Assembly: GCA_964017185.1 (NCBI GenBank)
Contig: OZ024878.1
Span: forward strand, 15,757,351-15,821,350
DNA from: Rugalucina vietnamica
Taxonomy: Eukaryota; Mollusca; Bivalvia; Lucinida; Lucinidae
Direction of reading: 5' to 3'
DNA length: 64,000 nucleotides
In this document: positions 17,333 through 45,478 of the stretch, piece after piece
Numbering within the stretch: position 1 is the first letter of the stretch
Layout of the letters: each line of letters starts with the position of its first letter
Notes under the pieces: generated by a model
The model's input: the letters and a program-made list of their open reading frames with translations, nothing else
Told to the model about the DNA's origin: nothing
Database searches by the model: none
Made by a program: the position numbers and the translations under genes

Positions 17333-17367
<35 letters not shown>

Positions 17368-18130: not shown

Positions 18131-18131
18131 T

Positions 18132-18149: not shown

Positions 18150-18170
18150 GTGTAATTCCGCTAATTAAAC

Positions 18171-19951: not shown

Positions 19952-20015
19952 AACACATTATTTTTTCAATCTGCATTATGCTGTCAATCTGCAGTTGAGA
20001 CTAAGAGCCAAAACC

Positions 20016-20110
20016 AAGGCCAATCCGGAACGAGGCAGGGCCAATCCGGAACGAGGCAGGGCCAAATCGGAACAGGGTAGGGCCAAATCGGAACAGAGGA
20101 GGGCCAGTTG
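20016..20110 (+). repeat. Subterminal 22-bp tandem repeats
   Basis: Four to five copies of GGCCAATCCGGAACGAGG and the variant GGCCAAATCGGAACAG occur head to tail close to the tip. The mirrored set is at about 42,875-42,970. Regular subterminal repeats often bind a transposase; that role here is inferred. Confidence 0.85.
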
Positions 20111-20224
20111 GAAATTGCGGAGGGAGTAGTAAAATATGCTAGAAACGTGTTTTTCTAGTACAAATGAGATATCAATACAGTAGAATATTATATTTCATCA
20201 AAGAATGCATAATTATATGTTTAA

Positions 20225-20860
20225 ATATTAAATCAAACAGGTATTCGTTAAATTATTTCCACATTTGAATGTATTATTCAAATATTTGAGAAAACATATC
20301 TTCAATTAGTATCCTGTTCATTAAAGAAGGAATTAATATATTCTTCAAATATTTGAGAAAACATATATTCTTCAAATGTTTTTGCAAAATCACAAAACAA
20401 CCATGAATCAAATACTCAATATATTCCTCAAATATTTACAAAAGTATATGTTCCTCAAATATTTGTAAAAAGTATATATCTCAAATATTTGAAAGAGTAT
20501 ATATTCCTCAAATATTTGAAAAAGTACATGTATATATCCCTCAAATATTGCGAAATCACTTTTTAATCATTAAATAAGGGTAGACATATTCTTCAAATAT
20601 TTGATAAACATACATTGGGCAAAAATAATTTTAAAAGTATATATTCCACAAGTATTTGAAAAAAAAGTATTTGACCATCAAATATTTGCGAAATCACAGT
20701 TGGATCGTTGAATATAAGTAGACATATTCTTAAAATATTTGATAAACATACATTTGGCAATTAAATAATCTTAAATGTACAGCTTCACTCAAATCGTTAA
20801 AAGAGTATTTTCATCAAATAGTTGATATATATGTTCGCTCAACAACTAAAAATTTAAGGA
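20225..20860. repeat. TCAAATATTTGA palindrome zone (left TIR)
   Basis: About 15 copies of the palindromic core CAAATATTTG are spaced about 30 bp apart and linked by 'aaaagtatatattcc'. The mirrored zone is at 42,150-42,720. Confidence 0.85.
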
Positions 20861-20934
20861 GCTATTTAGTTTTTATCTCTCCCCCTTCAGGGTCGGAGTC
20901 ATATTCTTTTTGCCCGTGTCGTATGTCTGTCTGT

Positions 20935-22440
20935 CTGTCTGTCACAAATCGTGTCTGCTTTATAACTTGAGAGCCGTTTAGATATCTTGGTGAAACTTCA
21001 CACGATTATTAACCAACATGAGACAACGTGCAGAACACGAGAATCATAACAATTACTCTGGATTGTGTATTTTTGGAGTTAAGACCCTTTGAAGTGGAAA
21101 AAAGCAGAATTTGCATTCTAGTCGTGTCCGTTCTATCACTTGAGAACCGTTTAAGATATCTCAATTAAACTTCACATGATTATTAATTAACATAAGACGA
21201 CCTGCAGAATACAAGAACCATAACTCTGGATTGTGTATTTTTGGAGTTATGGCCCTTTGAAATGGAAAATAGCAGAATTTGCATTCTAGTCGTGTCCGCT
21301 TTATAACTTTAGAGCCGTTTAAGATATCTTGTTTAAACTTCACAGGATTATTAATCAACGTAAGACGACCTGCAGAACATAAGAACCATAACTCTGGATT
21401 TTTAAAATTCTTGTCCTTTGAAATGGAATATAGCAGAATTTGCATTCTAGTCGTGTCCGCTCTATAACTTGAGAGCCGTTTAAGATATTCTGAGTAAACT
21501 TCACACGATTATTAATCAAAATCAGACGACCTACAAAACACAAGAACCATAACTCTGAATTGCTTATTTTTGGAGTTATGGCCCTTTGAAATGGGATAAA
21601 GCATAATTTGCATTATAATCGTGCCCGCTCTGTCACTTGAAAACCATTTAAGATATTATAATGAAACTTCATAAATTTATTAATCAACACGAGACGATGC
21701 AGAGCACAAGAACCGTAACTCTGGTTTTTAGTTTTTCGAGTTGTGGCTTTTTGAAATTAGAAATAGCCAAACAGGCATTTAATTAAGTCTTATCCGATCT
21801 GTATCTTGAAAACGGTTAAAAACACCATAATGAAACTTCATAGGAATATCAACTAGCCTGAGACGATGTGCAGAGCACAAAAAAGCGTCACTATGGATAA
21901 CAATTTTTCGAGATATGGCCCTCTGAAATGGGAAATAGCAGAATTTGCCTTTTTACTCTTGTCCGCTCTGTAACTTGAAAACTGTTTAAGATATTGTGAT
22001 GAAACTTCATTGGATTACTAACAAACATAACATGATGTGCAGAACACAAAGTCCGTAACTCTGAATTGCATATGTATCGAGTTATGGCCCTTTGAAATAG
22101 AAAAAAAACAATAGAATTTGCATTCTAGCTGAGTACACTCTGTAATATAAGAACCGTTTGAGATAGCTTCATTAAACTATACAGTAATATCAACCAGCAT
22201 TTGACGATGTGCAGAATCCAAGAACTGTTACTCTGGGTTGTATGGTTTTAGAATTATGCCCCTTAAAGAGATGCCAGATAAATGATTTTGCATAGTAAGT
22301 TTTGTCCTCTCTAACTAGAAAACCCTTTAATATATGATGATGAATCTTTGAAGCATTTGTAGCATGATACGATATTGCAGAACTTAGGAACCATAACTCT
22401 GGATGGCATATTTTTGTAATGGTCCCTTAGAATGACACAT
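20935..22440 (+). repeat. 165-bp satellite units in the left TIR
   Basis: About nine diverged units share 'gtccgctctataacttgaga', 'aacttcacacgattatta' and 'gccctttgaaatgg'. Spacing at 21,121, 21,288 and 21,452 is about 165 bp. It starts with a short (TCTG)n run. The inverted counterpart is at 37,055-37,845 and 39,715-40,130. Confidence 0.85.
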
Positions 22441-24300
22441 TGCAGATTATACATTGTAATCAAATAATGGTGCCCTCCTTGTAACTTGACAACCGATACG
22501 GGGTCCAACTGGTTTTTTTTCTTTTGCTCCGGAGTAAGTAAGTTATTCGGCGTCCAGGGATCTCCATCGTCGGGCAGCTTACTCAATCTGTGAGCCCTCG
22601 TTTTTTATTCATCATGATGTTTATCATGATTTATTTGTTTGTTCTTGATGATTCATTCGGCTTACGATATGTATTTATGGTATAAGTACCTGATTGTTAA
22701 TTTAGTTTTTTCCCTCCTCGGATTTTTGGAGTGAGAATCTTTTTCTGATTGCGCCTTTTCCTGATCGTTGCCTACTTGTATCTTTTCACAAGATTATTGA
22801 CAATATAAGAAGACCATAGAACACAAGATTTGTAACGCTGGATTGCATATTTTAGTTATGGTGCTTTGAAATGGAAGATACTGATTTTTGCATTATATGT
22901 CTGTTCTGTAACTTGGAAACCAATATTGAATATGTTTGGACTTGGAAAGGGGGAGACATCAGTTTTCGTGTAGAAAACAATTTCTAGTTTATAATTGACC
23001 GTTTTATGCTGTTTTTTTTTTTTGCTAGTTATTCCAATTTCTAGTTTTATGTTGCATGACTTTGTGGTCACCCGAATATCATTTGGCTGTTCACTTAGTC
23101 CTCTGAATTTTACTTGTTCCGTCCAAGCTCGCACTGTGGCCACCTTACCTTCAATAGCTGCCCACCCTGCTTTCCGTTATGATTGTTAAATGTTGGTAGC
23201 TATGAATAATATTTATTTTAACATAATGGTCCTTATTTCTTGTTTATATTTGTGTATAACGGATTTACAGTGATTGTAGAAGCTGAGGGCGAGGTTGGGT
23301 GCCTTTGAAACAAGTTTAAGCCCGTCAGTAATTTTATATTACTGATCGTTCCAAGGCGATACTTCTGTGGTGGTTCTATTTGTATTTTATTTTGGTGTTG
23401 AAATTTTGTGAAGTTTGCACCTTATGCAGCCTATTCGGAAATAGTTGCTCACTCGACTTACGATGTGTTTTCCTAGTATAAGTACCTGATTGTTAATTTA
23501 GTTTTTCCCATCTCGGTTATTGGAGTGGAAATTTCTGTCTGATTGCACCATTTCCTTATCATAGCCTACTTTTACCTGTGCAATACTAGACTTGGTACGT
23601 TATCTGTGTTAAACATATAGCTATCTCAATTATTTCAAACAGGATATATTTTAACTACCATCTGATTTCAAAAAATAATTCAAATAATCGGAAATGTACA
23701 TGTAAGTCACATGTACATTGAAACGCTTTCTCCTTTACTCCCTCTCGCGTGTACGTGCATGTACAAATGCTTAAAAAATAAGTATTCCTAACTCCATTAT
23801 CAAACATTAAGTATGTGTGTTAGTGCATAACAGAAAATAGACAGAACAATGATGTAATAAAACATAGATCGTTCCAAGGCGATGTTTCTGTTTTGGTTAT
23901 AATGGTTTAGTTTTGGTGTTTCGTTTATGTGTTATTTGCATCTCTTATGTTCGTTTTCGTGTATTTAGCTAACTCCGGGTAACTGAGTAGCCATCCATAT
24001 GTTCTCTTTGTATTAGTACCTGACTGTCAATTTAGTTTTTCCCACCTCGGCTTCTGGCATACTGACCCAGTCCCGAGAACGCCAATATCTGCCATCAGCT
24101 ATAATAGGAAATACAAGAAAACAATATTCTCTACAGCAATGAATTGTAATCACATACTCGTTTTTCCAAACTCATAAGCTTCAATATACATGTACATACA
24201 ATGGGAAAAGTTTTGAAAAAAATCAACTATCGGGAACCAGACAGTCTAAAGCTCTGAGATATTTGATATTTAGTATGGTTTTGGTCACGCGGTAAGGTTA
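22441..24300. other. Interior of the 23-kb element: dispersed repeats, no gene
   Basis: R5 copies or parts lie at about 22,620-22,790, 23,335-23,610 and 23,865-24,070, sharing 'tacctgattgttaatttagt' and 'cgttccaaggcgatac'. Nothing with coding character is seen. Confidence 0.55.
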
Positions 24301-24409
24301 TTACTCGGTGCGTCCGTCCCAGCGTGCGTGCCTCCTTTCTCACTTTCTAACATGAATATATCTAAGGACACTGGGCCAATTTTTAAATTTAATCTGAATA
24401 AAAATAAAA

Positions 24410-24560
24410 ACGGAGATCCTTTAAGAGCAGCGAGGATATTAAAGAGAATGGAGATGGGCCATACCGCGGTTTCGGCTACTGAAGCCTCTTCAATGACCCT
24501 TCAGATTTGGCAACATGGAGCCAAAATGAATTATTGTTATTTAGTAAAGTAATAATAATT
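24410..24560 (-). repeat. R6 fragment
   Basis: 'gggccataccgcggtttcgg' and 'atttggcaacatggagcc' are the reverse complement of the R6 copy at 9,560-9,710. The 74-aa ORF here translates it. Confidence 0.7.
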
Positions 24561-25071
24561 GAGAGAGCGGAATGGTTGCATTTGGTTTAGGGCCGAATGG
24601 GATCAGAACTCTGGAATACCACCCATAGACTTACAATGGCCCAAATAAAGAACATCAGCTTCTCTAAATCCGCAATGCATAGAGTTTTATATTATTTTTG
24701 TAGCATTATATAATAATCTTCTTTATAAATCCTGACAACCACGCCCCTGGGGTCCTTACATAAAAAATTCACAAAGCTTGTATACGTAGTATGCAACAGT
24801 CGTATGTGGAGCTGTGCATAAATCAAGTCAATCATGACATTGGGGTCCAAAATGTCCCCACTTTGCGGGTCATTGGCTCCCATATACATTCAATTGAAAA
24901 TACAAAAACTTCATCTCTGAAACTACAAGGCCCAGAGCTTTTAATGTGGCCATTAGTCCGTTCTTAAAATCCTGCAACAGTGCCCCATTTGGGTCTTTAC
25001 AGGCCACACCCAGAAGGCGTATTTTCTGCCATATGCTAATTATTGGCAACACATGAAAACTTCTGTCTCTG

Positions 25072-25074
<3 letters not shown>

Positions 25075-25107
<33 letters not shown>
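25075..25107. repeat. (CA)n microsatellite
   Basis: About 16 uninterrupted CA units occur just before an R1-type terminus. Confidence 0.97.
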
Positions 25108-25108
<1 letters not shown>

Positions 25109-25111
<3 letters not shown>

Positions 25112-25990
25112 TAACTAACCTAAGCCGAAGGCTCACAAGGTGAGCTCTTAGAATGGGACGCCAGCAGGTGTATGTGGGTCTGTGCGTGTGTCTGTCTGTC
25201 CACAGTTTCAAACATGTATATCTTGGAGACGAGAAGGCCAATCACAATTAAACTTGATCAGAAGCACATTTGTGGTGGGGGATCGTCTGAACCAGGTTTC
25301 GATGTAGGCAGGATTGAAATTCTGGTTTTAATGGCAACATATACTTCCAATAGAGTCAACACCCTTGTTCCTACATTTTTGATTGGATCTTATTTATTCT
25401 TGCAGTTAACGATAGCAACCATAATATCTCCAACGAGTTCGAATTCCGACCAGATTCCATCACGGACTACGGAGTCAGCTGCCCTTGTGCGTTTTGAAAA
25501 CTCCCAATAGACTTATAATGGGGAAAGTGGTGTAAACACATTTTCTCGGCTATTTTAAATCAAATCTTTTTCAGACTTGCAGGTAACAAGGACAACCACA
25601 ACAAGGACAACCACAATATCTCTGATCAGTTCGATATTCGACCAGATCCCACTGCTGATTGCTGAGTTAGCTGCCCTTGACATTCTGAAAAATTGATATT
25701 TAGTGTTGCCAACACTCCGGTGCCCTCTTTTTTTATTGGATCTTCGTTATTTATGTAACGTGGAAAAGTATAAGATCTTGGATGATTTCGAAATTCGACC
25801 AGATCACATGAATGGTTGCAGAGGTAGCTGCCTTTGAATGTCTGAAAATGATATTTAGTGTTGTCAACACTCTAGCCCCTACATGTTTGATTGGATCTTC
25901 ATAATTCTTGTTGGCAGAAGCGTGGAAAACCATAATATCTAGCATAAGTTCGAATTCGACCATATTTGTTCGTTTTCATATCGAACGGAC
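25109..25990 (-). repeat. R1 terminus followed by R9 units
   Basis: 'ctaagccgaaggctcacaag' at 25,120 is the right-hand R1 hairpin, inverted. After it come three or four units of about 165-170 bp sharing 'tgattggatctt..ttattcttg', 'accataatatct' and 'gttcgaattcgacc'. It ends near 'gaacggacgccgg' (25,983). A related unit is at 61,190-61,310. Confidence 0.6.
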
Positions 25991-26279
25991 GCCGGCTCGA
26001 GTAATATTCGATAAGCTTACCATTTGAGGAAACCTAAACAAAATATAGAAGATATCAAAGCTCTAGACCGTCTAGACCCCAGAGAAGATGTTTTTATACG
26101 TTTTCCCATTGTAGGTATATGGGAGCCTATGAGTTTGGCAATATTTGATTACAATACATTGTTACAAGCAAAATATATATATGGTTAAGAGAAGATTCAT
26201 GTATTTCATATTATAAGCTGATGGCAGATAATGACGTTTTATGGATCCCTGGGGCACGGTTGGTCTGACTAATAAAGAG

Positions 26280-26780
26280 GATTTATAATGGCCCCAATTC
26301 AATTTTACATTACTGATCGTTTCAAGGCGATACATCGGTTGTGGTTCAAATTGTTGTATGTTTTGGTGTTTGACTTTTTTGTGATGTTTGCACCATATGT
26401 ACGTTTTCATTACAACATTCTCAATACCAGAGGAGCGCTCCCCTGATATAAAAAAAAATCTTCCTTTTATAAGAAGAACTTAAAATCATCCCAGAGCCAA
26501 CGTCAACACAAAACATCTTCATATCAGTTGTTTAAAATTAACGATGTCGTTAGTTAACGATTCGTTAAAATTTCAAATGGCAATATACAAATACTCGTAC
26601 AGTTAGTTTTTGTTGAAAGGGTTAGGGTTAGAACTGATTGGCCATCTATCGGGAAACAGCTGCTCACTCGGCTATCGATATGTTCTCTTATTATTCGCAC
26701 CTGATTGTCAATTTAGTTTTTTTCCCCATCTCGGTTTTCGGAGAGGTTGTGCCATTTTATGTCTATTGCATAGTTTACCT
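26280..26780 (+). repeat. R5 copy, interrupted
   Basis: 'ttactgatcgtttcaaggcg' (26,310) to 'gtttgcaccatatgtacg' (26,405), then 'cacctgattgtcaatttagt' (26,698), correspond to the two halves of R5 at 23,335-23,540. Confidence 0.6.
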
Positions 26781-26912
26781 TACAATACATTGCTAAACAT
26801 GAAAATAAAAGCTCATGGGCCTTGAGGTTTCAGAGATTTGTTTATGTTTCCCAGTGTAAATCAGTTGAAGCTATTTGATGCCACGGAGACCAGCGAGTTC
26901 TGATCCAACCTG

Positions 26913-26913
<1 letters not shown>

Positions 26914-26947
<34 letters not shown>

Positions 26948-26980
26948 AATAATAATAATAATTAATAATAATAATAATAA
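26914..26980. repeat. (CAA)n(TAA)n microsatellite
   Basis: About ten CAA units run into about ten AAT units. The C-rich minus-strand ORF over it is an artefact. Confidence 0.97.
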
Positions 26981-27109
26981 AAACCTTTTCGCCAGACCAA
27001 ATCATCATAGCCAATTTTAAGGAAAGTTTCTGAGCGGTTTTATAGGAAAGCAATTTTGAATTTGTGGACAGACGGACGTAAAGACGACAGACATACGCCG
27101 CATTGTGGT

Positions 27110-28130
27110 ACACTATACTCTCGCATGAACAGCCTGTGGCTCAGCAGAGCAAACTAGAATATGGTTTGATACGGGTGTATCTCGTTTTTGTTAAGAGCCC
27201 AGAGATAGAGAGATGTTTTAACCTGTACAAAGAGCCTTCCTTTACACATGTGTACATAGTTTTCACAGTGCGACTATGCTCATTGTCTGGGCCCAGCACT
27301 TTTTTGGAAGATGAAGATGAATGACACGAGATCATTTGTTGTTTTGGGCTTCTGACGTAATTGAACAGTGTAATCACAAATGACTACTACAGAATTGAAA
27401 TTTTGTAATTATAAACAAAGAGTTTTTAATACTTTCTATATAGCTAAAACTCAATATTATGCCAGTTGATCTGCTGTCTTTTTATTTTCGAATTTGCTTA
27501 AACCATGTTTTTCCACGTCGCGGCTCACTGAAACGAATCATTCCCACAATTTGTAAGGAGTAGCCTTACAATATAATAGACAACAATGTTGAATTCTGTA
27601 ATGAGTAAACACCGATGCCAGTACAACCTGAGCATTGTATAATAGTAGTCAATCTTGACCTGACCTTTTGGTCCGATAAATTGTTTTACGATTCTTCAAA
27701 AGATTAATGACTTTGAATTGATTTGAAAATACTAACAACTGTCTTATACAATGAATTAGAAATCACTAGAACTTGCCGACCAAGAAAATTCTTAATGTAT
27801 GTCTCTTATTAGTATGAAAATGAGTGTCCCCTGATACTAGGTATCATTAAAAAAAACTTTTAACCAAGTAAATGATATTGAATTGAAGATTAATCCAAAG
27901 TTATGACTCTTAGCATCCATATTCATTAAAAGATTGACTCAGTTTTTCCAACTGCTCTGCACAAAACACGCCTTTGACGTAGCCGGCAAATCGGAGCAAG
28001 ATAATGTGACGGGTCTGTGACAATTTAAAGAGAATATTATATTTGACTCTATGCCAGTCTAACATACGGTTCTCAATTTATTAATGTTGAAATGCATGAC
28101 AAAATGAAATGACAGTGTAGAATTTACAAT
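27110..28130. other. No gene recognised
   Basis: AT-rich sequence. Frames up to 78 codons show no domain or splice-supported structure. Confidence 0.45.
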
Positions 28131-28139
28131 ATATATATA

Positions 28140-28625
28140 TAGATCTATATGACTTACAATCGCACGACATTCGTATGAACGTCGCGCGTTTTGTTATATG
28201 TGTGGTGAACTATTCGCCAACTATTAACGAAATACATTTAAGTTATAATCATGTTTTACCATTTCATGCGAATTTATTTGCCACGAACCTCTTGCTCAAC
28301 AGTCGTACGACATTCGTGCGAGAGTCGCGAACCTGCGACATTGTGGCGAATCTACAATGCGACAAATTCACGACGGTCGACATGCGAAACTAAGCGATAT
28401 TCGTGCGAATGTCGTAAGACACTCACAAATGTCTCACAACTGTCGTTCGAGTGTCGCGCGATATTTGTAAGACATATTTGCAAAATAAATGCGAATAATT
28501 TGGCCCGAATCGCACGAAATTGTCGCATAAATGTCCATTCAATGAGACTGCAACATGAAAATCGCGTGTCGCGAAACAGTTGCGAACTAGTCTTCAGTTG
28601 TCGCATTCCAGTGAGATAGTGACTT
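28140..28625. repeat. Cluster of palindromic 'ATTCGTGCGAAT / TGTCGCACGA' motifs
   Basis: More than fifteen variants of cgcacgacattcgt, attcgtgcgaatgtcg and gtgtcgcgcg occur in both orientations. Because ATTCGTGCGAAT is nearly self-complementary, the tract can fold on itself. It is richer in CpG than its surroundings. The ORFs at 28,251-28,619 and 28,352-28,639 are translations of it. Confidence 0.7.
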
Positions 28626-28639
28626 TCATTTAATTTCAC

Positions 28640-29225
28640 ATATTCCTCATGAAAAAAACGGTAACACGTATTTGTTCATGTTCCAGTCATGCCCCTATTC
28701 TAAGTTGTCACTGTGAAAACAAAATTGTGAAAACAAAATTGGAAAATCTTGTGTGCAAGATTTCTCTAAAGTATTTGAGCTAGAATATTCATATTTGGCA
28801 GACTGGTATATCACCTGATTAATTCAGGTGGATTAATTTATGTGATCTTTACTTTAACTTTTGAAAAAAGTTACAGAATTTTGAAAATAGATTGATATAT
28901 CTACTTTTCGGTGAAATTTGAAACTTTTCAGGCAACGGTGAACGCTACGATTGTGGAATTACAGATACAGATTTCTCATTGAAAAAAAAATGACCAGTAT
29001 TTTGTCATGTCCGAGTCATTCCCTTTTCTTAGTTTATACCTTTGAAATCAAAATTTGAAAATATTGTGTGCAATATATCTCATAATGTATGTATTGGGGC
29101 TTTAGTGCTTATATTTGGTATACTGTTTTGCACTGAGGAATAGATCACCTGATTGACTTTTGAGACGTTTCTGTCCATTTTAACTTTTGTGTAAAAAGCT
29201 CACATTGATCGAGGTCAAACCCCTG
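28640..29225. repeat. Two-copy tandem repeat, roughly 340-bp unit
   Basis: 'tttgttcatgttccagtcat' and 'aaaatcttgtgtgcaagattt' at about 28,670-28,765 are echoed by 'ttgtcatgtccgagtcattc' and 'aaaatattgtgtgcaatatat' at about 28,999-29,080. Confidence 0.55.
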
Positions 29226-29755
29226 GCATTCTAGCAGCTACACCGGGATATGAAAATTCATGTTGTTAAAAATGTCCCATTTTGTCCAAAGCATGTATAT
29301 TTATGCTTGTAGAAGCCTTCTTGGTATCAGTTTTGGTCTTACAAATACCTTATAAACTGTTGTTTTTGTACTACTGCAAAACATTTGTATTGCTTCAAAT
29401 GTCAGCTTATACAATTCTTCCTGATCTTAATGTTGAATTCTTGGCTGTTATAAGTATTATGCGTTATTAAGTGAAGACACGATCACGCAATCCATCTATT
29501 TACTGTCATATCGTATTCTTGTTCAAATTTCTTTAGTATGTATTAACATGCAACTTCAGATACTTTATGTCTACCGCCTTTTGTTATTTTGAGGATGATA
29601 CCAAACCCGTCTGCGAAGTTGCACAACACCTGTGTTGTGCACAAAAGGAAAACAGTATCTATTTTCCTTTGAAGTCATAATTGCTAACACTGACTAAGCT
29701 TAAAATAAAACAAAAATAATTCTAACTATAACCAGTTGACTGGCAGCAGCGATTT
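29226..29755. other. No gene recognised
   Basis: Ordinary AT-rich spacer inside the 23-kb element. A 62-codon frame at 29,282-29,470 has no recognisable features. Confidence 0.4.
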
Positions 29756-30327
29756 ATCCATGTGATGAAACCTAGGATAACGATTGATAAACCTGGTAGA
29801 TCTATATGTCCGTTAAACCTGGTTTATGTGCGATAAACCTGGTTTAACAACTGTTATCATAGGTTTGGCAGTAAAACCTAGTATATGTCCGTTAAACCTG
29901 GTTTAAGTGAGAAAACTTAGGATAACGATCGAGAAACCTAGTATATGTCCGTTAAACCTGGTTTATGTCCGTTAAACCTGGTTTATGTCCGTTATCGTAG
30001 GTTTTTCTGCCAAAACCTATGATATCAGTCCATAAACCTGGTTTAACGTACATATACCAGGTTTATCTAGTAAATGTGGAGATAAACCAGGTTTTACAAA
30101 CTTTGTCATATTCTTTAATATAGTAGGCAAGCCAAATGCACAATAATTCGAAAAACCTATCCTACGCCTAGCTTTAAGGAAGGAAACCTATCCTTCGTCA
30201 CGTGATTACATATACCAGGTTTCTCGATTTTTCATTGGTTCTAGCCTAGATATCGCCGAAAACGTTAAACCTGGTTTCTATGAATCCGATTGGCTAGCTA
30301 TCTGTTCGGGAAATCTGCGTCATATTT

Positions 30328-30566
30328 GAGCCGCCTCGTGGGAAAACCAAACCAACAATTTGCATAGGCGAAAACAAAGGCGCAGATCAGCTTCACAGTA
30401 ACTGCGAAGCCGATCAGCGCATTTGTTTTCGCTACTCGGATAGTACATTTCCTCTCCTTCCTAAGTCAAAAATTTCAAGCTTCTAGCTCTTTTCTTTGCT
30501 TGTACAGGTCGGTTTGTGTCGGACATGTTCGGAAACCACATTGTTGGTTTTCCCACGAGGCGGCTC
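30328..30566 (+). mobile_element. R3 hairpin MITE copy
   Basis: Its ends are GAGCCGCCTCGTGGGAAAAC and the inverse GTTTTCCCACGAGGCGGCTC. Internally a hairpin is formed by 'gcgcagatcagcttc' and 'gaagccgatcagcgc'. Confidence 0.85.
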
Positions 30567-31317
30567 AATTTTTGTTTTTGTCCCCCTGAGCTAGCCCAGG
30601 TAATCTCCGGTAATTTTAACAGGAGCCGCGTAATTTACACCGTATCGAAATTTATTTATTTATTGACAGTGGTGTTATGGCTAAAAACCCAAATTAGCCG
30701 TTTTAACGGCTAATTTGTTAACGGCTAATTGTATAATTTCGCGGCGAAATTGTGTGAAAAATAAAAGTCAGCGCGGAATTTCGCCGCGAAATTCCGCCGC
30801 GAAATCCGATATTTCGCGGCGAAACACGGCGAAAAAGTATACCTGTCATTACGCATAAAAATCAATTGACCGGTGTTTCGCTGTGTTTCGCGGCGAAAAA
30901 TATTTTTTTTGTTTAAATTTAATTTTAATTTGGAAGTTTTGTTTCATTTCAAGTCGTATCAATATTATGTTTTCGTTTTAATTTTGTATGATTATCGTTT
31001 TTGTCCCCCCGACAGTCACAAAAGTTTTATTGTTTAAATTTCGTTTTAATTTGTATGCATTTATTTCTTTTCAAGTCGTATAAATATTTTGTTTTCTTTT
31101 CAATTTTGTATAATAATCATTTTAGTTACGTGTTTTATTTGTGTCTTAACTGCTTTGAAGTTTCTGAGACCATGATTATCGGTTTTGTGTTTATTTTCAT
31201 GCTTCTTTTTTCGATAAATCAGACTTACTCGATAATATTAGATCCTATTATCTAGCTTAATTGACAAAATAAAAGCTTATAGCGGCGTAAGCAATTTTCA
31301 TGGGATGATTGCCCACA

Positions 31318-31535
31318 GATTTGTTTGTTTGTATTGTGGCTGAACGTCCCAGTCACCAATTTTTCAGTCATGTCTGGACGAAGCTACCGTTTCTTGGGTA
31401 TTAAGTAGTACTGTGGGTAGTTAATGTGCCTTGTTCAAGGACACAACACGGTGTCGACAGTGCGGATCGAACTCAGGACCTCTCGATTCGGAGTCTGAGT
31501 CTGATGCACTACAGCTATGCCACCGCGATCCCAAC
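31318..31535 (-). repeat. tRNA-derived SINE
   Basis: On the minus strand it starts with an A-box-like TGGCATAGCTGTAGTGC and a B-box-like GAGTTCGATCC. A conserved body (GACACCGTGTTGTGTCCTTG) and a tail GACTGGGACGTTCAGCC followed by (ACAA)n complete it. A relative is at 34,915-35,110. Confidence 0.8.
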
Positions 31536-32114
31536 CCACAGATTTATACAAGTCTTTGGATTCAACATGATGAAGCAATCGGCTTCAGCTCTTCTTTAGA
31601 CATTTAATTGCCTGTGGTTATGACACTGCTAAAAGCATAAGTGAATTATCGATTACGTCAAGTGCACGCCGTTTCGTTGAAATCAATTTAGTCGAGACGA
31701 CATTTGGTCGCATACGACCTTCACCGGGTCGATACGATATTCGGTCAAATACGAGCAATACAGCAACGTACATGTATAAAACTGTGTCGAAATTGTCAAT
31801 AATTGACAAGGTTCTTTTGCTAACCTATTTGAGTTAAACAGCGTGTTGTGTGCCTTCCAAAATCTACATGTACGGATGGCTTGGAACACGTACATGCATG
31901 TCGATTGTCAAAATTACAATGTATACAAGGCACAATACACTAGAAAAAGGGAGGATACTGTGTTTAAAACAAATTATTGTAGTTCATACTTGTACACTAA
32001 TTTTGTGTAAAAAATGGGTCATATGAAGTTTTCAGTTAATTTCGGAACACATATACAGTAAGGGCCACGAGTACGCTCCGCATTCGCATAAATCGATGGT
32101 GAATATATTAATTA

Positions 32115-32290
32115 GAACAAAGTTGAGCGCAGAAGCCTAGTGGTGGATTGTAGGAATTGACAGGAATCAAAATGTCCTGTGCTCGATTCCTATATTCATT
32201 GGGTTTCGTACTTGAGCAAAACCGGTATACATGTATTACCCTGAAAGTTTTGTCGCCATGGGACACAAACATTGTTGACTGTTAATCTGA
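32115..32290 (+). repeat. Possible tRNA-derived SINE
   Basis: AAGCCTAGTGGTGGATT resembles an A box and GTGCTCGATTCC a B box at the expected spacing. The tail 'attgttgactgttaatctga' loosely resembles the other SINEs. Confidence 0.45.
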
Positions 32291-32819
32291 ACTCAGGATG
32301 ATCTTCGCTAGTGGTACTTCTACAAGGAAAGTACAATGTATAAATCGATATGATTGCGATTAGCCTTGTGCTGGCATTCATAGAGGGTGATCAGAGGGGT
32401 AACCAGCAAGCCCAAATGTCAATATATGTCGTTTTTTGTTTTGTCGTTTTTACAAGGTTGAGCTCAAATTCAGTTATTGTAGTTCACACCTTAAACGCTA
32501 TAAAGCGAAGCAATTATTGAGGAAAATGTTCAAAAATGAAAGCAAGGAATCTAACTGTTTATTGAGCAATACCCTTTAGACAATGTTTGTGCTACAAAAC
32601 ACGGAACAAAGTAGATGGCCCCTGCCCATTGGGACCTAAAGAAATATACGGACTGTTTGTGCCTCCAGACAAAGCTTATACGCTATTTACTGATCATCTG
32701 ATAACTGGTTTACCGCTCAGGTCTGTGCCTGCGTAGGAAAACGGTTTCAAGTCAAACTACCAATACATATAAGCAGTATTGACTTAGAGGGATGGTTATA
32801 TTTCAAATACTTGTTTGAT

Positions 32820-32912
32820 ATCATGACGTCTCATAAAATGGAGGCAGCGTCCCGACATGACCACTGCTGTTGATTGGGACGTAAAGCATCTATTCAAACA
32901 AACAAACAAAGT
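32820..32912 (+). repeat. SINE 3'-tail fragment
   Basis: 'gttgattgggacgtaaagc' followed by (AAAC)n is the inverse of the tail of the 31.3-kb SINE. Confidence 0.55.
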
Positions 32913-33401
32913 TATATTCAACGAGCAGGTTCAGTACGTTTTAGATATTTTCGTCTATCCGTGGTTTTGCTATTGTACCATGTAATGTGAATGGAAAAGT
33001 CGCATTATGCACGTTTTTCATTTCTATACATGTATAATCGTAAATACTATTAATGTGCACGTAAATCACGATCTATACTAGGAACAGATGAATCATAGTG
33101 TGATCATTAAATTAAAAATAAATAATTTTATGTTAACATTTACAGGTATTTCACCGTGTTTCGCGGCGAAATAGGATATTTAAACTTACCTGTTGTAAAC
33201 GTTAAAAAACGAATTTCGCCGCGAAACACGGCGAAATTTCACCGCGAAAATCGGATTTTCGCGGCGAAAAAATTAATCGATTAAACGTTTAAATTTTCCC
33301 TTCGCCGCGAAAAATAACAAGTGATCAGCGCGAACTGTGCAAAAGTGGGTTTTAGCCATAACACCACTGTATTCATTTATTTATTTATTTAATTATTTAT
33401 T

Positions 33402-33404
33402 TGT

Positions 33405-33440
<36 letters not shown>

Positions 33441-33442
33441 TC
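33402..33442. repeat. (TTTC)n microsatellite
   Basis: About nine TTTC units follow an ATTT-rich stretch, next to the end of the 2.7-kb nested element. Confidence 0.95.
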
Positions 33443-34914
33443 AAAGAGTTCATTGATATATTTTGTAAAGAATTCGCAGGGACAAGCACATTGACCAATC
33501 AGATTGTGAGAAACTTGGTTTAACGAAACACGTGACATATTTACCTGGATGAACGATCCCACCAATGGAATACCGAAAAACTTGTGATATGAAAACACGT
33601 GACCTGGGAGAAAAACCTATGCTCGGGATAGGTTTATGGAAACCTATCCTCCGCACAGGTTTAGGGAAGGAAACCTATCCGGAGGACAGGTTTAACAGAA
33701 TTAGTGTGCATTTGGGCCAATGGAATACCGAGAAACTTGTGATATGAAAACACGTGACCTGTGAGAAAAACCTATGCTCGGGATAGGTTTATGGAAACCT
33801 ATCCTCCGCACAGGTTTAGGGAAGGAAACCTATCCTCCGCACAGGTTTAGGGAAGGAAACCTATCCGGAGGACAGGTTTAACGGAATTAGTGTGCATTTG
33901 GCTTGCAGCCTAACTAGAGATTTTATGAAAGGGTTGTTAAACCAGGTTTAACACTTTTTTACCTGTGATATCGCAAGTTTTAAGTAAAACTTATGATAAC
34001 AGTCCATAAACCAGGTTTAACGCACATATACCAGGTTTAACGCACATAAACCAGGTTTAACGGACATAAACCAGGTTTAACGGACATATACTAGGTTTAT
34101 GGGTCGTTATCCTAAGTTTCATTACATAAACCAGGTTTAACGGACATAAACCAGGTTTAACAGACATATACTAGGTTTCTCGATTGTTATCCTAAGTTTC
34201 ATTATATAAACCAGGTTTAACGGACATATACTAGGTTTCACAAAGAGAAACCTGGTATAACGATCGAAAACATAGGTTTAGGGAAGAAAACCTAGGATAA
34301 CGATCGAGAAACCTGGTATATGTCCGTTAAACCTGGTTTATGTCCGTTAAACCTGATTTATGTAATGAAACTTAGGATAGCGATCGAGAAACCTAGTATA
34401 TGTCCGTTAAACCTGGTTTATGTCCGTTAAACCTGGTTTATGTAATAGATAAACCAGGTTTTACGGACATATCCTAGGTTTCCCGAATTAGTGTGCATTT
34501 GGCTTGCCATAGACAGTAATCAAAGCAAAAACGTTCCATGGATATTAACTTGCAAACAGATTGGGGCCTGTCCAGTGAATCTTCCATGCTTTCTTTCTTC
34601 CAGACAAAACTGCAGTAGTCATAGATTCGATCCAGGGCTTCTACATCTTTTTGGGTGTGGTTTACGACATACCATGTCACATACGGCACTAGCTGTTAGT
34701 AAGTTGCAAAACCAGACAAAACAACAGCTAATCCAGTTTTAGGTCAGGAATAGAGTAGGACAAGAAATAATATCAGGGTAACTAGCTCTTTTCCAGAAAG
34801 GTAGCTACCGTGAACTTGATGAAATACCATTTTGTCGTGTCACTTGGGATGTCATGACATCCAAGAAAAGAACTAAGGTTAGTTTGACTTAACCAGGCTC
34901 AGACTTTAATTATC

Positions 34915-35115
34915 TACTGTTTGTTTGTTTTAAGGTTTAATGTCCCAATCAACATTTTTTTCGAGACGCAGTCACCTTTTCCTAGGTATCAACCAGTTAA
35001 CGTACCTTGCTCAAGACACAACACGGTGCCGGTAGAAGGGATCGAACCCAGAACTTCTCGATTCGAATTCCGATGCTGTACCACTAGGGCAAGTCGCTCT
35101 GGACTTTTTTTGTTA
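34915..35115 (-). repeat. tRNA-derived SINE
   Basis: On the minus strand: A-box-like TTGCCCTAGTGGTACAGC, B box GGGTTCGATCC, body 'caccgtgttgtgtcttgagc', tail 'gattgggacattaaaccttaa' and (ACAA)n. The 3' end cannot fold as a functional tRNA gene because the body continues. Confidence 0.8.
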
Positions 35116-35149
35116 AGCGGTTAGCAAGGGATGAGATGGTCAGCCAGTA

Positions 35150-35470
35150 GGAAATAACCTTTGAATGGTCACACATTTTCTCACAGCCCCGATAGACGGG
35201 GCTCCGTCACAGTGAAGCTGAAATAGACTTGCTGACCGTTACTTCTGTAGTGGTTCTATTTGTCCTGTGTTTTATTCAGATTTTCGCAGTTTGTTTCAAT
35301 GTACCTTTTCATACATGTATTTGACTAGCGTTATTGAGTGACCAACTTTGGAGAAAATGATGCTCAATCAGCTTACGATATATTCCTATTACTTACCTTT
35401 ACCTTTTGAAACGGACGCTGAAAAATTGTTGACTGGGACGTTAAGCCTCAATACAAAGAAAGGCAAAACT
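35150..35470 (+). repeat. R5 copy with a SINE-like tail
   Basis: 'gaccgttacttctgtagtgg' to 'agcttacgatatattcctat' corresponds to R5. It ends with 'gttgactgggacgttaagcc', the SINE tail sequence. Confidence 0.5.
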
Positions 35471-35734
35471 TAATAAACAGTATACAGCAACCAGTTACAG
35501 CATTTATTTGTAACGTGACAAACACGCATGGACGTATTCGAAAATGCGTTTTCTCATGCATATCTTGATTACTGGAATGTGCCACAGTTTTGTATCACGT
35601 TAGTTCCATGTTCATTAAGTATATATGACTCTTTACACATTTTGCGCGATCAATTAATATCCTGACCAGTCGTTTCAATAACAGGTCTCCCAGATGCAGA
35701 TTACCAGTATATAGTGCACATTTCTTCCACAGCT

Positions 35735-35822
35735 GACAGACATATACTTTATTCATTGCTATATAAAAGTGGGATTCAAGGGGATATAAATTCCACGGAC
35801 GTGTTTTGGTTTCCTGATGTAG
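35735..35822 (+). repeat. R2 MITE end fragment
   Basis: 'tatataaaagtgggattcaa' to 'ccacggacgtgttttggtttcctgatg' is one R2 terminus. The 74-aa frame over it is not a gene. Confidence 0.6.
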
Positions 35823-36237
35823 AAACAAACACCTTCGATCAGACTTATACACGTATACGATTTAGATCAGAAACCATGAACACTGTGAATTCATACAAAA
35901 TGCATTTAGCTCATAGGCGTTGTGAGTGTAGCATTTAATTTTAGAGACGATGACCATTTATTTGCAATACAGGATACCTTCACTTGAAACTTGGCGTTAA
36001 TGAGAAATAAATCCAGTGGTTTATGGTTTTCTTTGATTAAAGGAAAACAAGCTTGGTGGTCGTCTGTACGCAGGAAATGAAACGAATTATAATGACCGAA
36101 TCTAATTGCTCGTATGGTTCTCTCTATACAATAAAAGACTGAAGACTAGGGTTTTACATAATGTGATTTTAATTTTGTTCTCTTCAGATGTCGATTCAAC
36201 ATGTAGTCCAACGTTTCAGTTAATTTTGTCTGTGGTT

Positions 36238-36243
36238 TTCTTT

Positions 36244-36283
<40 letters not shown>

Positions 36284-36286
36284 TAT
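36238..36286. repeat. (TTTC)n microsatellite
   Basis: About eleven TTTC units, followed 70 bp later by a run of about 18 T. Confidence 0.95.
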
Positions 36287-37849
36287 TTATTTTCATCCGT
36301 AAAACATCTCTACATATATATGTATATAATGTAAACAGAGAAATGGTATCCCTAAAATGTTTTTTTTTTTTTTTTTTTGTTAAATGCCGAAAGTATTCAT
36401 ATGGCTCATAGGAAGACAATATCTGCATCAAATTTCTCATAATCGGAAACGTTGCACTGCGAGGTTCAAATCGAAACAAGCAGACTCAAACGAGGATCAA
36501 AGATTGGGCAGTTATTTTACCCTACCGAAGCCATTTTCATTTGCAGTATTTGACCCCGGATGCACATTTGAATCCCCTATTTTTACTTAATTAGACCCAT
36601 AATAAGCCTTCAGTGTGTATTTGCTATCATGGATGTTAACAGGCATAAAATTGAAACTATGCTGCAGGTATTCAGTAAATGAACAAGTTATTAAGAATCG
36701 CATAATGAACAAGAACATAGTGCTTTGGGCTTTACTCACAATGACGTAGTTTGTATAAAAAGCGGGGGTTTTAATTCGGTGTGCCGTATGGTAGGAGAAG
36801 AGCATTATAACCCGAGTCTGTGAATTCGAAAACAAAAATACGTTTGTTCCCGATAACAAAAATAAGTTTATTTCCAATAAAGGTATGCGAAAATTGATGC
36901 TACGCTTTATCTGTTAATCTTAAGCTGTGGGTTGCTACTTTTCGAGTGTACCGCAACGTCTGACGTTAGGTAAATGTTTTTCTCGCCTTTCGTTCGTTTA
37001 GAAAGTAAGAATAAAGGGACCAGGAATCGATGCAATTTAATTTAAAGTCCCAACATAGAGTCTGTTCTATTTCAAAGGGCCATAACTCGATAAATATGCA
37101 ATCCAGAGTTACGGACCTTGTGTTCGGCACATCATTTTATGTTTGTTAGTAATCCAATGAAGTTTCATCACAATATCTTGAAAACTAACAGTTTTCAAGT
37201 TACAGAGCGGACAAGAGTAAAAAGGCAAATTCTGCTATGTCCCATTTCAAAGGGCCATATCTCGAAAAATTGTTATCCAGAGTCACACTTTTTTATGCTC
37301 TGCACATCGCCTCATGCTGGTTGAGATTCCTATGAAGTTTCATCACGGTGGTTTTAACCGTTTTCAAGATACAGAACGATCAAGACTTTAATGCGTGTTT
37401 GGCTATTTCTAATTTCAAAGAGCCACAACTCGAAAAAAAATGAAAGCCAGAGTTACGGTTCATGTGCTCTGCCTCGTCTCGTGTTGATTAATAAATTTAT
37501 GAACTTTCATCATAATATCTTAAACGGTTTTCAAGTTACAGAGCGGGCAGGATTAGAATACAAATTCTGCTATATTCATTTTCAAAGGGCCATAACTCCA
37601 AACATAAGCAATTCAGAGCAATTCAGAGTTATGGTTCTTGTGTTCTGCAGGTGGTCTGATATTGATCAATAATCATGCGAAGTTTACTCAGAATATCTTA
37701 AACGGCTCTCACGTTATAGAGCGGACACGACTAGAATGCAAATTCTGCTAGTTTCCATTTCAAAGGACAAGAATTTTCAAAAATCCAGAGTTATGGTTCT
37801 TGTGTTCTGCAGATCGTCTCATGTTGATTAATAATCCTGTGAATTCAAA

Positions 37850-39700
37850 TAAAAGTGAGATACTTTAAGAGCCGCAGAGAGCATATTAATGAGAATAGGG
37901 ATGGGCCATACCGCGGTTTCGGCCTCTTCAGTGACCCTATAGATTTCGCAACATGGAGCCAAAGGGAATTACTGTAATTTTGCAAGTTTCAACAGGATAG
38001 TCGGTACAAAGAATATAACCAGAGGATCAATGGTCCTGTAAACGCTCACCTGAAACCCGAGATATATACCAATAACCTCAATGACTAGAATGGTACTATA
38101 CATGTATACAACCCCAGGGCCGGGTCAGAGCAACCCCTTGAGTCAATTTCTTTCGGAAAACATAAAACTGCAGTCCATTTGCCAATTTACTGCAAGTTTT
38201 GCCCTTCAAATGACATTTTAACAATTTTCCCCATTCAAATGCATGGGCGACCTAAGTTGACCTTGCCGTAAAATAGGTCAAGGTCATCCAAGGGTCACAC
38301 TTTATATAAAGTTTGTAGATGTCCCATTGCCTGATGCTTCATGCCAAGTTTCAAAATCATAGGCCTTCTGGTTCTGGAGAAAAAGATTTTAAAGGTTTTT
38401 GCTATTTATAGCCATGACAGCCATCTTGGTCATGTGACCTTGACCATATATATATATACTTTCAATCCCACTTCCTAACAATGCTCCTCATAAAGTTTGG
38501 CTTTGATTGGTCAAGCAGTTTCAGAGGAGAAGATCTTTAAATATAACTGTAATATACATGTAATACTATATTGCCCCGGGGTGGGGGCAGACAGACAGAC
38601 CCCTGGGGTCCAAATTTTTTCAGAAACATCAATCTTAAGTCCATTTGCCCATTTCCTGCAAGTTTTTCCCTACAAATGACATTTAAACACTTTTCCCCAT
38701 TCAAATGCATGAGCGACCTATGTTGACCTTGCCGTAAAATAGGTCAAGGTCATCACAGGGTCATGATTTATATAAACTTTGTAGAGCTCTAGTCACTGAT
38801 GCTTCACATCAAGTTTCAAAATCATTGGCCTTCTGGTTCTGGAGAAGAAGATTTTAAAGGTTTTTTTTCTATTTATAGCCATGGCGGCCATCTTGGTCAT
38901 GTGACCTTAACTATTTATATAAACTTTCTTTCCCCCTTCCCAAGGATGCTCCATATAAAGTTTGGCTTTGATTGGCCAAGTGGGTTCAGGGGAAAGAAGA
39001 TGTTTCATTATTATGAAAATATACATGTATATAGCCCCGGGGCAGGGGCAGACAACCCCCCAGGGGCTAAATTTTTCCATTAACATTAATCTTTTGTCCA
39101 TTTGCCTACTCCCAGTAAGTTTTACCCATTAAATAGCATTTTACCATTTTTCCCATTCAAATGCATTGGAGACCTAAGTTGACCTTGCCGTTAAATAGGT
39201 CAAGGTCATCCTAGGGTCATGATTTATATAAACTATGATGGGCTCGCGTCCCCAATGCTACATACCAAGTTTCGTGGAAATCGGCCTACTGGTTCTGGAG
39301 AAGAAGATTTTTGCTATTTATAGCCATGTCGGCCATCTTGGTCATGTGACCTGGACAATTTATATAAACTTTCGTTCCCCCTTCCTAAGGATGCTCCACA
39401 TGAAGTTTGGCTTTGATTGGCCAAGCGGTTTCAGAGGAGAAGATCTTTGAAATTGTGAACGACGGACGACGGACGGACGGACAGACGGACGGACGCCGGA
39501 GCATGGGTATACTATAAGCTCACCTGTGAGCCTTCGGCTCAGGTGAGCTAATAATCAAAAAGGGGCCAAATATATTAAACGTTGGTTAGAAAATGAATCT
39601 AAGCCGATAATAATTTTCTGATTTCTCAGAATACCCCCGCTGATCTCAAAGGACCAAAAAGAAAAAAATAATCTGCACTATAGATGATGTACGGGGAGAC
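37850..39700. repeat. R6 copy split by an R1 element
   Basis: R6 occupies 37,855-38,018 and continues at about 39,556-39,690, compared with the unbroken copy at 9,410-9,720. Between them R1 runs from CCAGAGGATCAATGGTCC (38,020) to AGGTGAGCTAA (39,550). R1 thus inserted in R6, and the target was a TATA-like spot. Confidence 0.75.
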
Positions 39701-40195
39701 TTTTTACGAAGTGAAGTTTTTTTGTGAAGTTTAATCAAGATATCTTAAACGGCTCTCAAGTTATAGAGCGGACACGACTAGAATGCAAATTCTGCTATTT
39801 TCCGTTTCAAAGGGCCATCACTCCAAAAATACACAATCCAGAGTTATGGTTCTTGTGTTTTGCAGGTCGTCTCATGTTGATTAATAATCCTGTGAAGTTT
39901 AACTAAGATATCTTAAACGGTTCTCAAGTGATAGAGTGAAGACGACTAGAATGCAAATTCTGCTATTGTCCACTTCAAAGGGTCATAACTCAAAAAATAC
40001 GCAGTCCAGAGTAATTGTTATGATTCTCGTGTTGTGCACGTCGTCTCATGTTGGTTAATAATCGAGTGAAGTTTCATCAAGATATCTTAAACGGCTCTCA
40101 AGTTATACAGCGGACATGATTTGTGACAGACAGACAGACGGACAGACGACTCGGGCAAACAGAATATGACTCCGACCCTGAATGGGGAGAGATAA

Positions 40196-42005
40196 CAAGA
40201 GGACCAATGGTCCTGTAAACGCTCACCTGAGAGTTGCTGTATATACCAATAAACATGTTTGAATATTATATACTCAACAAAAAAGTTCAGGAAAATGTGT
40301 TTCAGGGCCTGTAACACAAGAACTGTTATACTTCATGAAATGCGAACTCAATATTATTATGAAGTGTCTTTTTAGCTTTCAAATGATGACTTAATTGAGA
40401 TGATGACCCTTACAAAAGCTTTAAAAATCAATTTCAAAGTGGACTGGTCGCCTCTCCATGTTTCGCAAAATTGCCATATTGTTCGATTTGTGTATCAATT
40501 GTCACTCGAGCTTTTTTTTACACAATAACCATGTCTCCATTGACACATTTTCTCATGAACAGCTGAACAGCTGAGTAGACCTGTTGTAAAGTATTTTCAG
40601 CATCAGTACCATTGTTGGTACCATGAGAACAATGTCAGATGAAATCGCCCCAGTATCACCCAAAATTATCTACGTCGGAACAACGTTGAGGTCAATGACT
40701 AAGCAACCCACCCCAGACAAGGTCCCTCCTGAACAAGTGTTACACATTCTGGGACAGCATGATATGGCCTGGTGTGGAATACTGGCATCAAAAGCTCTCC
40801 AGTTTCTTGCTGTGGTGCTTCAGGAGGAAAAAAGGCTGATTTCTCAGCACCAAATTCGGCATATTGTTGATCAAATTAAAGAATTGTCGGTTGGTTGTGG
40901 TGCTTTGCAGCCTGATAGCGCCATCTAGGAAATGCTAATGATGCAGGAAAAGCAGTATGACATGCCTCAACATCTTGTCTTGTGAACTGATCTACGTGTC
41001 TTCAAAGTCAATGTTTTTAAGGCAGGAGTCTACATTGACACTTTTTACTCAAACTAAACAATATTGCAATTTTGTGAAAACTGGACTGATGACGAGTCAA
41101 CTTACACATTGTTTTTTCCCAGCCACTGCTGAGGCTACAAATTCAAATGAGACCTCATTGAAAAGATAAATCGACACTTTATAACATACCAAAGTTTAAA
41201 TTTCTAACTCTTTACTAGATTTATTGCAATAAGCACTTGAACATATTTCCTTAACTTTTTGTTGAGTATATAGAACATAGTCCCCGTATAGGGGCAGATG
41301 AAGCCCTGGGGCCATTTTTTTTCAGAATAATCACTATCCTGTCTATTTGCCAATTTCTTACAAGTTTTTCCCTTCAAATGACATTTTAACAGTTTACCCA
41401 TTCAAATACATTGGCAACCCATGTTGACCTTGCCTTAAAATAGTTCAAGGTCATCACATGGTCATCATTTATATACACATTGCAGTACTTGAGTCATGGT
41501 TGCTTCATGCAAAGTTTCTTTGAAATCGGTAAACCAGTTCCGGAGAAGAAGATTTTTGAAGGGTTTTACCATATATATGGGCATGGCAGCCATCTTGGTC
41601 ACGTGACCTGTATTATCTATATATAAATTGGTCCCCCTTTCCTATAGATGATTCATATAAAATTTGGCTTTGATTAGCCAAGCGGTTTCAGAGAAGAAGA
41701 TCTTTGAATAATACACATGTATATTGCCCCAGGGTGGGGGCAGACCAACCCCTAGGGTCCAATTTGTTTTCAGAATCACACAGCTTCAGTCCATTTGCCC
41801 ATTTCCTGCAAGTTTTTCCTTTCAAATGATATTTTATCAATTTTCCCTATTCAAATGCATGGGCAACCTATGCTGACCTTGCCGTAAAATAGGTCAAGGT
41901 CATCCAAATGTCATAATTTATAAAACATTGTAGTACTCCAGTCCCCGATGCTTCATGCCACGTTTCGTCGAAATCGGTCCAGTGGTTCCGGAGAAGAAGA
42001 ATTTT
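40196..42005 (+). repeat. R1 copy, truncated, carrying a MITE
   Basis: The R1 left hairpin AGAGGACCAATGGTCCTG starts directly after the TIR text 'ggggagagataac'. The copy breaks off near 42,003. A 1-kb inverted-repeat element interrupts it at about 40,271-41,268. Confidence 0.7.
40271..41268. mobile_element. Tc1/mariner-like MITE, 1 kb
   Basis: The ends are CTCAACAAAAAAGTTCAGG and, inverted, CTCAACAAAAAGTTAAGG, flanked on both sides by TATA. The flanking R1 sequence is contiguous in other copies, which confirms an insertion. TA-type flanks and the short TIR suggest Tc1/mariner. The 101-codon frame at 40,623-40,928 has no recognisable transposase motif. Confidence 0.7.
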
Positions 42006-43031
42006 AATAAGATGATGAGATAGTCACAGAATCAAAATCATGACCAAGAAGAATAGAGTCTTTGGAGTGGAGTGGACTATGGTATCATATATGTAATTTT
42101 GAGATTATATAGAAGAAGACATCATCTCATCAGACTTTATAAGTCTAGTATTTGATGAATATATACTTTTAACGATTGGAGTAAAGCTATACATTTAAGA
42201 CTATTTAATTGCCTAATGTATGTTTATCAAATATTTGAAGAATATAGCTACTCATATTCAACGATCCAAGTGCGATTTTGCAAATATTTGATGGTCAAAT
42301 ACTTTTTTTTTTCAAATACTTGTGGAATATATACTTTTAAAATTATCTTATTGCCCAATGTGTGTTTATCAAATATTTGAAGAATATGTCATCAAATATT
42401 TGAAGAATATGTCTACTCCTATTTAATGATCCAAGTGTGATTTCGCAATATTTGAGGAATATATACGTCTTCAAATATTTGAGGAACATATACTTTTCAA
42501 ATATTTGAGATATACACTTTTTTCAAATATTTGAGGAACATATACTTTTTTCAAATATTTGAGGAATATATTGAGTATTTGATTTTGAAAAACATTTGAA
42601 GAATATATGTTTTCTCAAATATTTGAAGAATATATTAATTCCTTCTTTAATGAACAGGTTACTAATTGAAGATATGTTTTCTCAAATATTTGAATAATAC
42701 ATTCAAGTGTGGAAATAATTTAAAGAATACCTGTTTGATTTAATATTTAAACATATAATTATGCATTCTTTGATGACACAATTTGTATAAAATATATATT
42801 CTACTGTATTGATATCTCATTTATACTAGGAAAACACGTTTCTAGCATCTTTTACTACTCCCTCCGCAATTTCCAACTGGCCCTCCTCTGTTCCGATTTG
42901 GCCCTACCCTGTTCCGATTTGGCCCTGCCTCGTTCCGGATTGGCCCTGCCTCGTTCCGGATTGGCCTTGGTTTGGCTCTTAGTCTCAACTGCAGATTGAC
43001 AGCATAATGCAGATTGAAAAAATAACGTGTT

Positions 43032-45450: not shown

Positions 45451-45478
45451 CAATTGTAATTGTGATCAGTAAATAAAG

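Follow-up and report, generated by a model that had tools for sequence, protein, structure and literature searches.

A probable class II DNA transposon family of unusual size, with 4-bp target-site duplications of varied sequence, in the bivalve Rugalucina vietnamica

Introduction

According to one review, natural eukaryotic DNA transposons may stay small because transposition loses efficacy once the cargo exceeds about 6 kb (PMC6431247). Giant families of the KDZ, EnSpm and Sola-1 superfamilies are described in the brown alga Ectocarpus, where they are generally longer than 10 kb and can exceed 30 kb (PMC12477816); these form the nearest precedent for the elements considered here. Among smaller systems, Academ has expanded in bivalves (PMC10294476). 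Among the papers listed in our literature searches, judged by titles and abstract openings, none described a family of this kind in a bivalve. Here we describe an element of 23,080 bp in a stretch of 64,000 nucleotides (the window) from the bivalve Rugalucina vietnamica (assembly GCA_964017185.1, contig OZ024878.1, C10:15757351-15821350), together with its relatives in the genome (1.09 Gb, 47 contigs). A first-pass annotation had proposed a giant, non-autonomous element with terminal inverted repeats (TIRs), moved by a TTAA-specific transposase of the piggyBac type. We found that the element very probably belongs to an unusually large class II DNA transposon (cut-and-paste type) that was mobile until recently and whose 4-bp target duplications vary in sequence.

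Results

The ends of the window copy were placed correctly in the first-pass annotation. Both tips begin with AACACRTTATT, exact to the base at 19952 and 43031, and TTAA is found on either side. The interrupted BEL/Pao pol frame is indeed continuous if one TTAA is counted, with ...GHFPL and MKTLGVQW... joined across the insertion point.

19948..19951, left copy of the target-site duplication (here TTAA)
19952..43031, the element, window copy, 23,080 bp
19952..19993, plus strand, left tip, A type (AACACATTATTTTTTCAATCTGCATTATGC...)
42990..43031, minus strand, right tip, G type (AACACGTTATT...)
43032..43035, right copy of the target-site duplication (here TTAA)

The first 300 bases of the TIR were used to search the genome. 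This gave 149 candidate places, 40 of which were scored; 36 of the 40 formed 18 inverted pairs. Other full-length copies exist. With a 22-base tip and at most one mismatch, 63 and 62 places were found on the two strands (at least 100 of the 125 exact), while the reversed control gave 0 and 0. The 100 tips among the matches listed could be arranged into 43 inward-facing pairs of 20.1-58.6 kb (median 29.5 kb) and 14 singles, and no outward-facing neighbours were present within 70 kb. Ten further pairs came from the 300-base search only, giving the 53 known elements (13.8-58.6 kb) referred to below.

All fetched element ends stop at the same base, the sole exception being the right end of the copy C17. 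The flanks of 11 elements were compared and are unrelated: two matches were found, each connecting separate elements at a distance from the junctions, and none linked the two sides of one element. TIRs with fixed ends are a defining property of class II TIR DNA transposons. The window copy and ten other fetched copies carry an A-type tip at one end and a G-type tip at the other. Over the first 900 bp, A ends are 99.7% identical to each other (55 comparisons); the two ends of one element share on average 92% and at most 94% (11 comparisons), the mean being lowered by an insertion in the G arm of C7.

We then read both junctions for 18 pairs, window included. Twelve showed an exact 4-bp duplication, four a duplication with one mismatch and one with two mismatches, and in the remaining pair a tip was altered. 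The exact duplications were TTAA (window and C14), AACA, CTTG, TTCG, ATAA, TGAC, ATAT, TAGA, CTAA, AGGG and GTTA, so that TTAA accounts for just two of the 12. As the altered right tip removes C17 from the count, 17 pairs remained; an element's own flanks were identical over 4 bp in 12/17 and over 5 bp in 0/17, and cross pairs of flanks matched at 4 bp in 4/272. This constant length is likewise a property of class II TIR elements. It also fits Sola1, which produces a 4-bp duplication.

Thus TTAA is one target among many, and the 4-bp duplication is not TTAA-specific. Since other copies duplicate varied 4-mers, the TTAA around the window copy is not a piggyBac signature. Genome-wide, the exact pattern of TTAA plus tip was found at nine tips, representing four pairs flanked on both sides (window, C14, C5:31365839 and C8:7141401) and the left tip of C17. 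The first-pass annotation had stated that its reading would be refuted by, among other things, copies of the tip that lack TTAA flanks and end at different positions; half of this came true, since copies without TTAA were found but they do not end elsewhere, C17 right excepted. The dinucleotide AC precedes the target in 9/17 and GT follows it in 3/17 pairs, possibly reflecting a mild AC-N4-GT preference, a pattern picked after the data had been seen.

The arms of the window copy are largely as had been reported. We measured about 2.2 kb of inverted homology per arm, against the 2.2 kb or more claimed, in three blocks (element coordinates): 1-880 with 22187-23080 (88%), 919-1473 with 19692-20247 (87%) and 1378-2151 with 17114-17901 (89.5%). 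Both arms are ordered as tip, four 21-bp repeats, CAAATATTTG zone and a satellite of about 168 bp, and in the right arm it is interrupted twice by extra sequence (about 1.9 kb and 1.8 kb), which includes 455/466-bp repeats. The subterminal and satellite repeats are present as the first-pass annotation had it, though their periods are different: 21 bp (four copies per arm) rather than 22 bp, and 168 bp by Tandem Repeats Finder rather than 165 bp. The CAAATATTTG motif is absent from the window outside the two arms, and under simple shuffling 0.004 copies would be expected in the left zone.

20018..20101, plus strand, four 21-bp subterminal repeats (GGCCAATCCGGAACGAGGCAG type), left arm
42883..42966, minus strand, four 21-bp subterminal repeats, right arm
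20279..20688, plus strand, CAAATATTTG palindrome zone, left arm, 7 exact copies
42228..42692, minus strand, CAAATATTTG zone, right arm, 10 exact copies
20949..22264, plus strand, tandem satellite of about 168 bp, left arm, 7.8 copies, with an inverted counterpart in the right arm
37065-37852 and 39643-40198 (whole 37065..40198), minus strand, inverted counterparts of the left satellite
38158-39453, 455/466-bp repeats separating the right-arm satellite blocks

With at most three mismatches, the 21-bp repeat had 86 and 97 genome matches on the two strands and 0 and 0 in the control. Known tips contain 96 of the 100 matches listed, in matching orientation; for 93 the offset is exactly +66 or +87, and for three it is one base away. 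The exact repeat was found in 71 of the 81 known tips on C1-C10. Such fixed spacing is as expected of a binding site, and the repeats may be recognised by the mobilising protein. The matches at C10:254882 (plus), C7:40810013 (minus), and C8:45089741 and 45089868 (minus) have no listed tip. The first of these lies 31 kb from a lone tip, C10:286182, and may mark that tip's partner.

A 28-base interior marker occurs 21 times in the genome and lies within 19 of the 53 known elements, but in none of the 16 whose two tips are both of G type; the remaining 34/53 either have a different interior or have lost the marker. The 21-bp repeat is common to elements with and without the marker. A second exact repeat at +87 is largely restricted to marker-bearing elements among the matches listed, a further sign of two subfamilies. 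The tip and the 21-bp subterminal repeats are terminal modules common to at least two subfamilies. We make no claim of three interior types, because the absence of one marker does not show a different interior.

To describe the interior, C14 (55.8 kb) and C4a (46.7 kb) were read throughout, in pieces. Once nested insertions are subtracted (in C14, single insertions of 7.2 kb and 1.6 kb and a pair of 4.4 kb that share their ends; in C4a, a Gypsy element), they have a core of about 38 kb in common. The window copy retains C14 coordinates 1-6730, 13948-14635, 42902-46174 and 46182-55844, plus a nested element of 2.7 kb, and it is an internal-deletion derivative of the core of about 38 kb. Its deletion junction recurs in four more copies (C15a, C7, C6b and C1b), so the deleted form multiplied as a unit.

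19952..26693, plus strand, left segment common with C14 (its 1-6730), 98.7% with gaps counted
27372..27374, internal-deletion junction defining the short form (between 14635 and 42902 in C14 element coordinates)
30667..33369, nested element of 2.7 kb, inverted ends CAGTGGTGTTATGGC.., present in copy C15a too
33702..43031, plus strand, right segment common with C14 (its 46513-55844), 98.5% with gaps counted

In C14 the two nested 4.4-kb insertions occupy 14636-19026 and 38483-42900, with the same GTCCATGAGC inverted ends and without a clear target duplication. The short-form deletion spans almost exactly their outer ends, as if the two had departed together as a composite. The 2.7-kb element is presumably hAT-like, judging from its ends.

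Divergence within the subfamily of the window copy is very low. Between C14 and C4a, 172 substitutions were counted over 34,900 sites (0.49%), so this subfamily spread recently. Minor alleles made up 0-0.8% in 100-bp bins of ten A arms (C4a's arm, which has a deletion, being excluded). By these values the window's subfamily, the one that they cover, is young, in relative terms and not in absolute years.

The first-pass annotation described the element as free of genes, and the longest stop-to-stop frame wholly inside the window copy is indeed only 128 aa. In C14, all stop-to-stop frames of at least 130 aa lie in a 57-bp tandem array, with the exception of two that start in the host flanks. In C4a, frames of this size belong to the tandem array or to the nested Gypsy (with antisense frames); one more, of 137 aa, had no match in Pfam. 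When low-complexity frames had been dropped, together with the stretch of 57-bp tandem repeats and the nested Gypsy, 85 open reading frame (ORF) fragments of at least 66 aa remained in C4a; the 48 of them run against Pfam gave no domain above the cut-off and only sub-threshold matches to TatC (E 0.015) and BpuSI_N (E 0.012). The core may still contain a gene that has diverged or is divided into many short exons. The piggyBac domain PF13843 (DDE_Tnp_1_7) matched 40 places in the genome, none inside the 53 known elements. The XPG nuclease is carried by an Academ lineage; its domain (PF00867) had three genome matches, none in the 53 elements, though a diverged or spliced domain could escape such a search. 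The exact 22-base tip was absent from IMG/VR contigs, and the first 900 bp had no near match among phage records.

The window copy interrupts a BEL/Pao retrotransposon, whose part beyond the insertion (43036-45447) has stops of its own and a frame change.

18165..19951, plus strand, host BEL/Pao retrotransposon left of the insertion (Pfam: DUF1759, RVT_1)
43036..45447, plus strand, host BEL/Pao retrotransposon right of the insertion (Pfam: Peptidase_A17, H2C2, DUF5641)

A DHHC gene and a rhodopsin-type receptor are also located within the window (Pfam), and the window's repeats are of what we take to be the bivalve type. The 455/466-bp repeat family is found in the right arm (38158-39453) and at window positions 57367-59064, 1-945 and 13796-14193. 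By reading, we also found in the right arm (about 40264-41273) a nested repeat of about 1 kb with TATACTCAACAAAAAAGTT inverted ends.

Discussion

Our preferred explanation, which we hold with high confidence, is that these elements are copies of a recently mobile class II DNA transposon. Its transposase would be supplied in trans, or by another subfamily, and would recognise the AACACRTTATT tip and probably the 21-bp repeats at +66/+87. The element would move as a single piece of 14-59 kb, presumably by cut-and-paste rather than replicative transfer, and both ends would be joined to the target with a 4-base stagger, leaving a 4-bp duplication of varied sequence. The exact ends, the duplication and the dispersal would all follow if a transposase, whatever its class, acted on both ends in this way. 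The giant TIR element of the first-pass annotation thus stands, as one that moves as a unit and is apparently non-autonomous.

Several observations weigh against this explanation. No transposase was recognisable in the window copy, C14 or C4a, and 14 of the 100 listed tips have no listed partner, some partners carrying mismatches. Duplications with one mismatch were found in four of the 18 pairs (TCAT/CCAT, AGAA/AGAG, CCAG/TCAG and ATTT/TTTT), more than the youth of the copies would suggest. The C8 pair (TACA/TTAA) has two mismatches, and the right tip of C17 is altered. The single mismatches, at C4b, C1c, C9 and C15c, are always at position 1 or 4, adjoining the element on one side, and processing of the ends may be their cause.

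A giant element moved by a TTAA-specific transposase of the piggyBac type would account for the TTAA on both sides of the four pairs named above, yet ten of the 12 exact duplications read differ from TTAA, which already refutes it. Moreover, nine exact TTAA-flanked tips stand against 125 tips with at most one mismatch, none of the 40 PF13843 matches falls in the 53 known elements, and the tips start with AACAC and not with CC, piggyBac ends being given as CC..GG (PMC10045372) or CCYT (PMC10175614). We regard this part of the first-pass annotation as practically untenable. Segmental duplication, or recombination between inverted satellite arrays, might be considered given that the arms hold tandem satellites and 455-bp repeats present elsewhere in the window, but the exact common ends, the 4-bp duplications and the unrelated flanks refute it for the pairs read, and we give it hardly any credence. 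It is very unlikely that the elements are gene-stripped remnants of an integrated large virus or of a virus-transposon fusion (Teratorn-like), with intact ones perhaps in other subfamilies. The sizes of 14-59 kb would suit such an origin, and the interiors of the 34/53 marker-negative elements lay outside our reading of C14 and C4a; neither of these two, however, contains a viral-type ORF, and the tip and the first 900 bp are without counterparts in the viral and phage records searched.

A composite origin concerns the source of the interior and is compatible with movement as a class II transposon. Here, the terminal modules of a smaller long-TIR transposon would have come to flank, and now to move, varied host DNA, much as in bacterial composite transposons. 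The same tip and 21-bp module occurs with and without the interior marker (0/16 in elements with two G tips), and on reading, the cores of C14 and C4a resemble host DNA with nested transposons and no gene. On the other hand, absence of the 28-base marker could equally mean deletion or divergence, internal turnover could equally have diversified a long-TIR element, and the known pairs include no small founder bearing these tips, the smallest of the 53 being 13.8 kb. We therefore view this origin as possible but doubtful. Tentatively, and as something we consider rather unlikely, the family might be a container-type animal transposon. A conserved terminal module, made up of the tip and the 21-bp repeats, would then pick up gene-poor stretches of host DNA (14-59 kb) and mobilise them. 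The family would have about 60 copies, very young where they were compared, in two or more subfamilies whose interiors apparently differ. It would be driven in trans by a transposase that cuts with a 4-bp stagger and comes from a superfamily with which such ends have so far not been associated.

Returning to the class II transposon as such, a family of this size (14-59 kb, about 60 copies) would demonstrate that DNA of such lengths has been moved repeatedly by a transposase in an animal. The eleven copies compared are nearly identical, and those read inside have no recognisable gene. As it moves, the family takes large blocks, nested elements included, to other places in the genome. For a search for the enzyme it offers exact ends, 4-bp duplications and several subfamilies.

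In comparison with known systems, two were rejected on duplication length, that is Polinton/Maverick with 6 bp (PMC10045372) and Galileo of the P superfamily with 7 bp, in some cases 8 bp (PMC4168063). Galileo and foldback elements nevertheless resemble the present family in their long TIRs, the tandem repeats of the longest copy and the existence of transposase-less copies, though the longest Galileo is about 9 kb as opposed to 14-59 kb here (PMC4168063). Ginger1 and Ginger2 also make 4-bp duplications, but they were rejected since they have TGTNR ends and CCGG/CCGT or RTATAY targets, as opposed to AACAC tips and neither target here (PMC2836005). The 4-bp length falls within the 3-4 bp of AcademX, from which our elements differ in size, as curated Academ elements average about 5.6 kb (PMC10045372); in addition, no XPG nuclease domain match was found in the 53 elements. 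Of the superfamilies considered for their 4-bp duplication, Ginger, AcademX and Sola1, we assign the family to none. Teratorn, a piggyBac fused to a herpesvirus, is likewise a giant TIR DNA transposon in an animal, but it is about 180 kb long, carries virus genes and has CCYT ends and a TTAA target (PMC10175614). The giants of Ectocarpus are similar in being large and in having nested foreign elements fixed among several copies; they are assigned to superfamilies, whereas no transposase was found in the copies read here, and the present family is set apart by arms of about 2.2 kb with satellites and by pairs of up to 59 kb (PMC12477816).

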